A stretch of 64,000 nucleotides of DNA from an uncultured Alphaproteobacteria bacterium. GTDB lineage: Bacteria > Pseudomonadota > Alphaproteobacteria > Puniceispirillales > Marisalimonadaceae. The stretch is from contig CAKZQZ010000054.1 of assembly GCA_937142855.1 (NCBI GenBank), positions 1-64,000 of the forward strand, given 5' to 3'. A program made the translations under genes and the position numbers. Below are positions 12,966 to 18,333 of this stretch, in pieces; the first letter of the stretch is position 1, and each line of letters opens with the position of its first letter. A model generated the notes under the pieces. The model saw nothing but the letters and a program-made list of their open reading frames with translations. It made no database searches and was not told where the DNA came from.

Positions 12966-13655
12966 ATGGCTACTACAAAAAAAATTAATGATGGTTTCAT
13001 CAAACTTACAAAGGATAATATTAGTAAGGGCCATTTAGGCGATAAAATCAAAAGCATAAGTGGAAGTGACAAAGTATTAACTACTGAAGAACTTTTACAA
13101 GCACGACGAAAAATTATTCCAGATAAAGGGATTGGTGAAGACATTTATATTTTTGCATACGGATCTTTATTATGGAATCCAACTGTAGATTATGAGGATG
13201 AATTTTTAGCTAAAGTTTATGGTTTCCATAGAAGTTTCTGTATGAAAACTAATTTAGGAAGAGGATCTTTTAAAAAGCCAGGGTTAATGTTAGGACTTGA
13301 TAAAGGTGGTTCATGTCGAGGATCAGCATTTAAATTAAGAAATTCAGAAGCTATAAAAAATATTGATATATTATTTAGAAGAGAAATGGTAACTGGAGCA
13401 TATAAGCCAAAATTATTAAAAACAATATTGGTAAATGGGAGAAAAGTTTTATCTCTAGCTTTTACTGTAGATAAAAAACACAAAAACTATTTTCAAGATA
13501 AAGAAATACAAACTAAGGCTAAAATGATTTCTAATGCACATGGATTTTTAGGCTCTTGTGAAGAATATTTTCAAAATACGCTAGAAAGTTTATCAGAGCT
13601 AAATATTGTCGATTCTGAAATGACTGCAATTTCTAATTACTTAAAAAAGAATTAA
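12966..13655 (+). CDS. chaC: ChaC-type glutathione-specific gamma-glutamylcyclotransferase
   Basis: Cleaves glutathione into 5-oxoproline and Cys-Gly in the cytoplasm. The glycine-rich substrate loop FAYGSLLWNP (about residues 60-69) and the catalytic-Glu block FRREMVTGAY are both present. There is an N-terminal extension of about 55 residues before the fold, as in other bacterial ChaC proteins. It follows mscS by 9 bases and overlaps the convergent GMC oxidoreductase gene by four bases. A second cyclotransferase-fold gene lies about 3 kb away at 16768. Confidence 0.88.
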   Translation: MATTKKINDGFIKLTKDNISKGHLGDKIKSISGSDKVLTTEELLQARRKIIPDKGIGEDIYIFAYGSLLWNPTVDYEDEFLAKVYGFHRSFCMKTNLGRGSFKKPGLMLGLDKGGSCRGSAFKLRNSEAIKNIDILFRREMVTGAYKPKLLKTILVNGRKVLSLAFTVDKKHKNYFQDKEIQTKAKMISNAHGFLGSCEEYFQNTLESLSELNIVDSEMTAISNYLKKN

Positions 13656-16205: not shown

Positions 16206-16685
16206 TTACACTACAACGCTTGATCCCCTTTTAAAGTCTTTATAAACTTTAAGAAGATTTATCCATTCATCATGTTCAACTTTACTCATTAAACTTGTTC
16301 GGGCATCTATATAATCCCTCCAAGATTCAAAGAGAGTTTCAGAAGCTTGGAATTCAACGCGGTTTGGGCTTCTACGAATATTTAACCAACCTTCACTCTC
16401 ACACTCATCAACAATAGATGATATAGCCTGCCTTGTGCTCCTTAATTCTCTTGCTACGGAAGCGATAGTATAAAATTCATTTACAGAAAATGCATAGTTA
16501 CAAACTCTTGCAAAAACATTTTTAAGTGGTGTCGAATTAAAATATCTTTGCATTCTTGAGTTCACTCTATCAACTCTTGATTGATATACTTTTATTTCAT
16601 GCAAGGATATAATTCTTACCATTTCCCTATAAATAGTGTCTTCGTCTATAAAATCAGGGATATTTGTGTCAGTATTTTTATTCAT
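16206..16685 (-). CDS. Winged-helix (MarR-like) transcriptional regulator
   Basis: A 159-residue protein with a central winged-helix region (about residues 68-112): SVNEFYTIASVARELRSTR, a recognition-helix segment QAISSIVDECESEGW and a wing LNIRRSPNRV. Helical flanks before and after would form the dimer interface, as in MarR-type proteins. It lies 91 bases upstream of the TauD-GMC genes on the same strand and is divergent from the fused cyclotransferase gene, so it is the obvious local regulator candidate. Target and ligand are unknown. Family membership is judged from the pattern, not from a close named homologue. Confidence 0.7.
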   Translation of the reverse strand: MNKNTDTNIPDFIDEDTIYREMVRIISLHEIKVYQSRVDRVNSRMQRYFNSTPLKNVFARVCNYAFSVNEFYTIASVARELRSTRQAISSIVDECESEGWLNIRRSPNRVEFQASETLFESWRDYIDARTSLMSKVEHDEWINLLKVYKDFKRGSSVVV

Positions 16686-16767: not shown

Positions 16768-17595
16768 ATGGAAAAAGACTTAAATATTAATAGTGACGTA
16801 AAGTCACTAAAATTAAATATTTTAAAAGAAAATTTAAAACAAGACTGGAACCTTGATACTGACTTATGGAATGAAGAATTTCCACATGATTACAGGTTTG
16901 AAGACACTTACCTACAATTAAGTTTTGTTTTAAGAGACTTTAATATTGATGAGTTAAAACACCTAATTTCTATTACAAATATTTTTGATATAAAAAATTA
17001 TAATCATGATGTTGCAACATTAATAAATAATTTTGTAAGAAGTTGTGTTGAATATTTAAACTGCGAAATTGAAGGTAAATCAGACGAATATTTCAAAAAA
17101 TTTGATAAAAATAATAACTGTTTTTCGTATGAAAAAAAAATTAAAAATGCGTTAAAAAAGCATAAATTAAAATACTCCCTGTTCTTCTATGGAACATTAC
17201 GATCTGAAGAAGTACGAGAAGCAGTCATCGGTCAAAAAAAATTCAATATTTCCCGTGGTATTTTACAAAAGCATAAAGTGTATAAAGTAAAAAATGCTAA
17301 TTATCCTTTAATTAAATTTACTAATCAAAAAAGCGATGAAGTTGAGGGTATTTTAATAAAAGATCTAACCACAGAAGAAATAAAAAAATTAGATAAATTT
17401 GAAGGTAAAAATTACTTTCGTCAATTTGTAAAAATCAATATGAAAGATAAGCTTTATGACGCACAGATTTATATGCCACAGAAAACTCTGATAGCTGAGG
17501 AGCCTTGGAATTTTGATTATTGGTATAAAAATAATATAAATGATTTTTTTTCAAAGGAGTTCAATCTAAATGGAGTTAAGGAAATAAAAAGTTAA
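16768..17595 (+). CDS. GGCT-like gamma-glutamylcyclotransferase domain fused to an unrecognised N-terminal domain
   Basis: The C-terminal part (about residues 138-260) is an AIG2/GGCT-like cyclotransferase: substrate loop FFYGTLRSEE, then VEGILIKDL and the catalytic-Glu region LDKFEGKNYFRQF, followed by AQIYMP. The first 130 or so residues are a separate, mainly helical, charged region (with WNLDTDLWNEEFPHDYRFED) that I do not recognise. The C-terminal tail is Trp/Tyr-rich. Substrate could be a gamma-glutamyl amine or peptide; the domain alone does not tell. It is divergent from the winged-helix regulator and convergent with the TerB-DnaJ gene (12-base gap). Confidence 0.75.
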   Translation: MEKDLNINSDVKSLKLNILKENLKQDWNLDTDLWNEEFPHDYRFEDTYLQLSFVLRDFNIDELKHLISITNIFDIKNYNHDVATLINNFVRSCVEYLNCEIEGKSDEYFKKFDKNNNCFSYEKKIKNALKKHKLKYSLFFYGTLRSEEVREAVIGQKKFNISRGILQKHKVYKVKNANYPLIKFTNQKSDEVEGILIKDLTTEEIKKLDKFEGKNYFRQFVKINMKDKLYDAQIYMPQKTLIAEEPWNFDYWYKNNINDFFSKEFNLNGVKEIKS

Positions 17596-17607: not shown

Positions 17608-18333
17608 TTATTTAGTCTTTAACTTTTGAACTTGGTCCCATGCAGCATTAATGGCCCTCATTTTGTTCTTACTCTCATTAATTACTTCAACGGGTACACC
17701 TTTGCTAATCAATAAATCTGGATGATGCTCTTTTGATAATTTTATATATTTTTTTCTAATCATCTGAAGATCATCTGAAGGTTGACTTTCCAAAACGATA
17801 TAAGGATTTAATTTATCAGATGATTTCCTAGATTCTCTTATGCTATTATATTGTTTTTGGGTTAATCCAAAAATATAAGCGATGTTAGCTATCATTGATT
17901 CTTCATCCTGACTTACATTTCCATCAGCTTCAGCAATATAAAATAAAATATTTATAACCTCTTCCAAAACATTTATGTTTCCTTGAAATATCTCTGCAAT
18001 TTGCTTTGCATAAGGTTCATAGCCTGTGCTTTCATCCTTTGCTTTATTGAAAATTTTTGCAACTTTATCTATCTCACTATCAGGTATTTGTAATTTTTCT
18101 TTTACTGCAAACAACTCTTCCTTGCTAACTTGTCCGTCGGCTTTGCTCAATTTTGCCGAGAGAACAATTAACGATAACGCAAAAATTTCTTGAGCATTTT
18201 GCTGATTAGTAATGTTTTTTTGTGAACCAATTCTAGAAATTTTACCACCAAGAAAAGACCCTAACAAAGCTCCAAAAGGACCTCCAAATGAAAAACCAAT
18301 CACACCACCAAGTAGAGTACCCCAAATTGACAT
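17608..18333 (-). CDS. TerB-domain / J-domain protein (DjlA-like co-chaperone)
   Basis: The N-terminus has a Gly-rich hydrophobic stretch (about residues 3-32, GGVIGFSFGGPFGALLGSF) that probably anchors it in the membrane. A TerB-like helical domain follows (about 45-160), with two acidic repeats, KADGQVSKEELFAV and EADGNVSQDEESMI. The C-terminal J-domain (about 172-241) holds the HPD motif in SKEHHPDLL and should stimulate a DnaK ATPase. The order anchor-TerB-J matches DjlA co-chaperones. It is monocistronic as far as visible. Confidence 0.85.
   Translation of the reverse strand: MSIWGTLLGGVIGFSFGGPFGALLGSFLGGKISRIGSQKNITNQQNAQEIFALSLIVLSAKLSKADGQVSKEELFAVKEKLQIPDSEIDKVAKIFNKAKDESTGYEPYAKQIAEIFQGNINVLEEVINILFYIAEADGNVSQDEESMIANIAYIFGLTQKQYNSIRESRKSSDKLNPYIVLESQPSDDLQMIRKKYIKLSKEHHPDLLISKGVPVEVINESKNKMRAINAAWDQVQKLKTK

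Follow-up and report, generated by a model that had tools for sequence, protein, structure and literature searches.

The locus considered here raises the question of how a domain of the GGACT/AIG2-like gamma-glutamyl cyclotransferases came to stand behind a protein region that resembles no described family, and of what the two parts may do together. The window (the whole stretch of DNA analysed, 64,000 nucleotides) contains the corresponding open reading frame at the coordinates and with the length of 275 aa given in a preliminary description of this DNA, which had read it as a GGACT domain fused to an unrecognised N-terminal region (Table 1). Comparison with related genomes bears this reading out: the product is a true two-domain protein with the GGACT domain at its C-terminus, and the fusion is kept in relatives. 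Throughout, g1 denotes the genus of the source genome (G000), g2-g4 the other genera of the same family f1, and f2-f4 other families of the same order. Literature searches of open-licence papers showed no account of this fusion in the titles and abstract openings that they listed.

Table 1. Features of the fused gene and its surroundings in the window
Feature	Coordinates	Strand	Remarks
Fused gene	16768..17595	+	275 aa, ATG start
N-terminal domain, residues 1-134	16768..17169	+	orphan, predicted all-helical; homologous to stand-alone proteins of 127-134 aa in two sister genera
GGACT / AIG2-like gamma-glutamyl cyclotransferase domain	17179..17511	+	Pfam PF06094; predicted GGCT fold (Foldseek on the model)
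FFYGTL, residues 139-144, presumed substrate-loop motif	17182..17199	+	YGTL in 27/27 fused proteins
Glu212 codon within LDKFEG, presumed catalytic glutamate	17401..17403	+	LD[KR]FEG in 27/27 fused proteins
TerB + DnaJ-like protein	17608..18333	-	convergent, constant neighbour of the fused gene
Weak MarR-like regulator	16206..16685	-	divergent neighbour
ChaC	12966..13655	+	PF04752, 110 bits; housekeeping in the order

The two halves of the protein

A Pfam search of the 275 aa protein up to E = 1 returned GGACT and a sub-threshold Pepsin-I3 as the only entries, with neither a NUDIX domain nor a PF04752 (ChaC) match among them, and no NCBIfam family matched across the whole protein up to the same E-value. 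The PF06094 match spans residues 138-247 and reaches 57.4 bits, the cut-off being 22.8. The closest solved sequences, those of two Arabidopsis AIG2-like proteins (E 4e-5 and 8e-5), align with the C-terminal half only. The motifs YGTL and LD[KR]FEG are kept in every fused protein of our alignment (A3); we take Glu212 of LDKFEG to be the catalytic residue, following work on human GGACT, and YGTL presumably forms the substrate loop, as in the GGACT literature. The AlphaFold2 model of the full protein has a mean pLDDT of 67.8, which is higher in the C half, a mixed alpha-beta domain. Foldseek with this model retrieved 17 PDB chains at E <= 1e-3 (AIG2-like, GGCT, GGACT, ChaC2, YkqA, PH0828 and the Paulinella transit-peptide domain), all of which we take to belong to the GGCT-fold group. 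The premise of the preliminary description that such domains are normally stand-alone proteins holds in part; exceptions are a GGACT-NUDIX fusion (L154) and YkqA of B. subtilis (2qik, 269 residues), which is among the fold matches.

The GGACT half is most closely related to stand-alone proteins from other families of its order, with 41-44% identity in f3 and 32-39% in f4; one further f4 match has internal stops and 26% identity. In the rest of the class, with the window and the members of the order left out, matches reach at most 35% identity. A tree was built from 36 of 48 GGACT loci, the other 12 having been left out for want of similarity to the fused GGACT at E 1e-3. In it, the nine fused domains form one group (97/96), which adjoins three stand-alone f3 domains on a weak branch (88/73). 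The fused and f3 domains together lie within a larger group made up of f1, f3 and f4 rows (95/86), the f4 rows do not form one group, and two f2 copies lie outside. Given the weak branch between the fused and f3 domains, the scattered f4 rows and the outlying f2 copies, transfer of the GGACT gene is possible. Two of the places counted for PF06094 (in G081 and G085) are also ChaC matches. Two g1 genomes showed an additional weak PF06094 match (L121, G020:C4 near 24995, and L122, G025:C40 near 613), in open frames of 325 and 335 aa that perhaps encode another multi-domain protein.

The N-terminal half is of a different kind. The sensitive profile search proposed earlier, when carried out with this region alone, turned up nothing convincing in Pfam, NCBIfam, PHROGs or the sequences of the PDB: for residues 1-137 of the window protein, Pfam had no entry at E = 1 or better, and the best scores of the domain were E 0.0055 in PHROGs (a family matched by 3/24 members), E 0.12 in NCBIfam (a stray chaperonin), E 0.31 in Pfam (1/24 members) and E 0.53 among PDB sequences. 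The model of the domain has six helices and a mean pLDDT of 71.1, with residues 25-48 below 50, and these residues contain much of its most conserved stretch (W34-N-E-E37, D41, E45-D46, Y48-L-Q-L-S-F53). Two cysteines, C93 and C118, are invariant. Foldseek with this model gave E 1.5 for the best PDB match and E 0.33 for the best viral one, and the best VIA Z was 5.0, a level marked as common for helical bundles; these candidate structural relatives were middling helical bundles and were set aside. The highest 19-residue Kyte-Doolittle mean, 0.59, does not suggest a membrane segment.

At E <= 1e-3, with a 24-row alignment as query, the N-domain was found in 37 of the 136 genomes of the order, all of them from family f1 (28 in g1, seven in g2 and two in g3); none of the three g4 genomes, which are 51-77% complete, contained it. 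Raising the limit to E 5 increased the number of matching genomes to 43, of which the same 37 are real; the additional six (G024, G021, G042, G071, G065 and G076) have fragments of at most 52 residues, the G024 fragment being the end of a fused gene that a contig edge truncates. Among 385 genomes of the class, the domain was clear in the window's own copy only, and seven other matches were noise (E 0.04-0.37). When 84,980 species genomes were scanned for two conserved peptides, 36 N-domain loci were obtained, all in the same group; with such patterns, diverged relatives could be missed. By these relatives, which include SAR116 cluster bacteria and the single cell SCGC AAA536-G10, the source genome is placed with the SAR116 group. 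Viral contigs gave no match to the domain. As judged by these comparisons, the N-domain appears to be an orphan family confined to bacterial family f1, as far as the searches reach.

Conservation and origin of the fusion

The fusion is real, conserved and specific to genus g1. It is present in 29 of the 40 g1 genomes (G000 included), with 27 complete copies and two cut by contig edges, so that the relatives do carry the same fusion, and with the same constant TerB-DnaJ neighbour, as the preliminary description had proposed to check. The 26 other complete copies and the cut copy of G016, which lacks the first 16 residues, are 63-71% identical to the window protein, and the G024 copy, of which residues 119-273 are left and still span the junction, is 59% identical. 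Every complete copy is a single open frame; in the plus-strand loci the stop codons counted are those at the protein end, and the remaining copies are full-length open proteins. The TerB-DnaJ copy that serves as a marker of the locus (>= 85% identity, that is, at least 85%) occurs in all 29 fusion-bearing g1 genomes and is absent from the other 11 assemblies. Two of these 11, G028 and G029, have the ChaC match, and the contig stops short of the place where the fusion is expected. Among the 40 genomes, none was found that is assembled across the locus and has no fusion.

The surroundings of the gene are largely constant. The TerB/DnaJ gene is next to the fused gene in all 27 other fused loci and is convergent with it, and is therefore not an operon partner. 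Its family has two paralogues of about 40% likeness (DjlA-like) in many f1 genomes (e.g. G000:C3:30706-31419), one of them being the constant neighbour. The ChaC gene close by had been noted before and is indeed there, being visible beside 25 of the 27 other fused loci (the remaining two are cut by contig ends). The significance attached to it is not supported: ChaC occurs in 108 of the 136 order genomes, or in 42 of 43 when the good ones alone are counted, and since it also adjoins the unfused N gene of g3 at the same place, its closeness is uninformative about the fusion. The MarR-like regulator was detected, at the threshold used, beside seven of the 27 other fused loci, at both g3 stand-alone loci and in the window, and it comes and goes among close relatives while the surrounding genes stay constant. 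In one assembly only (L062), the neighbouring GMC oxidoreductase gene is split into two frames (913-1758 and 1801-2505), by either decay or sequencing error. A promoter scan found eight promoter-like sites, fewer than in shuffled sequences (mean 13.9). A mobile origin of the fused gene was considered and rejected: the whole fused protein had no match in phages, the N-domain had none in viral contigs, and the one plasmid match, a weak one (E 0.03), was confined to the GGACT half.

Two sister genera encode the N region separately. Both g3 genomes have it as a protein of 133-134 aa with its own start and stop and 71-72% identity to the N region of the window protein, and seven of the 13 g2 genomes encode a 127 aa form, likewise with its own start and stop (51-54% identity). 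In none of these nine genomes did the GGACT half of the window protein find a counterpart at E 1e-3; two of them, G040 and G046, have a weak PF06094 match elsewhere in the genome, and the PF06094 matches of G046, G043 and G053 (g2) and of G042 (g4) showed no similarity to the fused GGACT at that E-value. The independent occurrence of the N-domain in nine genomes without this kind of GGACT indicates that it has a role of its own. In the g3 genome G041 the gene order is MscS-ChaC-GMC-TauD-MarR-like regulator-N gene-TerB/DnaJ, at 63-83% identity, which is the order of the window minus the GGACT half, and the same order is visible from ChaC onward in the second g3 genome (L075). The g2 gene has different neighbours, an alpha/beta hydrolase and a NIPSNAP-like gene.

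At the junction, a g3 stand-alone N protein ends with "...YEKKIKNELNKIN", and the window protein runs "...YEKKIKNALKKHKLKYSLFFYGTLR..." at the corresponding place, while in f3 and f4 the stand-alone GGACT proteins start only a few residues ahead of the F-x-YGTL motif, at the point where the fused N-domain stops. No ATG, GTG or TTG codon occurs in residues 116-150 of the window gene, so that a separate GGACT start is not available there.

Two other accounts of the long frame had been foreseen in the preliminary description, namely that the N region is an accessory part of ordinary GGACT proteins or that local frames were joined artefactually. There is next to no chance of either, because the N region exists as an independent gene elsewhere, is missing from the five aligned stand-alone GGACTs of f3 and f4, and is joined to GGACT in 27 complete copies from separate genomes. 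The best explanation, which we regard as probable, is a g1-specific fusion in which a GGACT gene was joined behind the N gene, the C half being an ordinary enzyme and the N half keeping its function: in the ancestor of the SAR116-type genus g1, a stand-alone GGACT gene of the type found in the order would have been joined in frame behind the small N gene, and joining rather than loss would be the simplest history. The reverse course, in which the fusion is the older state of family f1 and the C-terminal GGACT half disappeared from both g2 and g3, is unlikely. It accords with a GGACT group that spans other families of the order, so that the gene could be ancestral, and two genera without the GGACT half could mean two losses. 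Against it, the stand-alone N proteins terminate just at the end of the domain, and the DNA behind their genes has no GGACT remnant: in all five stretches searched (121-122 nt in both g3 genomes and 289-291 nt in three of the seven g2 genomes) the scores were no better than those of shuffles.

Selection and proposed function

Both halves are kept by selection, and the N-domain is under strong purifying selection. Among the fused genes the median pairwise dN/dS (Nei-Gojobori) was 0.10 for the N part (227/300 pairs usable) and 0.19 for the GGACT part (217/300), values that are rough because dS is near saturation in many pairs. This sample comprised 25 of 28 fused sequences (the window copy and 27 others), after removal of an identical protein, a shorter one and an incomplete one. 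The stand-alone N genes gave 0.12 in g2 (21 pairs) and 0.14 in g3 (one pair).

In the preferred reading the C half would be an ordinary GGACT enzyme, which most likely acts on a gamma-glutamyl amide or peptide: with Glu212 as acid/base, the alpha-amine of the substrate would attack the gamma-glutamyl amide, and 5-oxoproline and a free amine or amino acid would be released. The N half would retain the function of the stand-alone protein, most probably the binding of a partner or ligand, through which it would place or control the enzyme; the enzyme would then be fixed at that site or brought under that control. The idea of the preliminary description that this region may bring a substrate, and hints at a specific gamma-glutamyl compound, stays a conjecture. 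The substrate could not be read from the neighbours, a route that we abandoned: ChaC, the GMC oxidoreductase, TauD and TerB/DnaJ likewise stand beside the unfused g3 gene, and nothing there is specific to GGACT.

Other divisions of labour between the halves can be envisaged. The GGCT fold is used elsewhere without cyclotransferase activity, and the GGACT half might likewise be a binding scaffold that has lost this activity, the N-domain being the working part. The fold matches to 9i09, the Paulinella transit-peptide domain (E 1.2e-4), and to allophanate hydrolase (E 3.6e-3) would agree with a scaffold, as would the stronger conservation of the N part, yet the retention of YGTL and LD[KR]FEG in all fused proteins speaks against it, and we hold it to be rather improbable, somewhat more so than the older fusion. 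Less credence still is given to a more ambitious proposal, in which the N-domain would be a new lineage-restricted family that senses or binds one gamma-glutamyl compound or its carrier in SAR116-type bacteria, and the fusion would supply the missing step of an undescribed gamma-glutamyl pathway of the surface ocean; the fusion alone reveals no new pathway. A role of the fused enzyme in methylamine breakdown, which has been reported from marine bacteria, with gamma-glutamylmethylamide as substrate, is very unlikely. The search for GmaS used a single model, TIGR03105 (type III glutamine synthetase), which we take to cover this enzyme; its cut-off was reached in none of the 58 f1 genomes, 44 of which match below it, and this counts against such a role. 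In its favour, a published study (PMC5520151) describes a SAR116 genome that carries dimethylamine monooxygenase genes, and gives gamma-glutamylmethylamide as one of the pathway's intermediates. The reading that we prefer remains an ordinary GGACT enzyme that the N half places or controls.

Relation to known gamma-glutamyl cyclotransferases

The locus provides a clear example of how domains become fused in marine bacteria: a sister genus still has the unfused gene, with the neighbouring genes in unchanged order. The fusion ties an orphan N family, otherwise without a functional clue, to gamma-glutamyl metabolism and thereby offers a starting assay. What is new is the arrangement of the parts, a modest novelty; the enzyme half is a known GGACT.

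The fused protein shares with the GGACT/AIG2-like enzymes (PF06094; human 3juc, Arabidopsis 2g0q and 2jqv) the domain match, the YGTL and LDxFEG motifs and the predicted GGCT fold, and differs from them in an additional, unrelated N-terminal domain of about 134 residues. ChaC (PF04752) belongs to the same fold superfamily as the GGACT half, 6ky0 and 6ky1 being among the fold matches, but is a different family with a housekeeping distribution in the order. A two-domain protein with GGACT also occurs in another alphaproteobacterial family (L154:745-1881), in an arrangement that we presume to be TrgB-like; there, GGACT is N-terminal and its partner is NUDIX, a known enzyme domain that the protein described here does not have. 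Closest to the fused protein are the stand-alone GGACTs of f3 and f4 (e.g. L040-L044), which group with it in the tree and share its C-terminal tail (E/D)F-x(3)-G(V/I), but, unlike it, have no N-domain.
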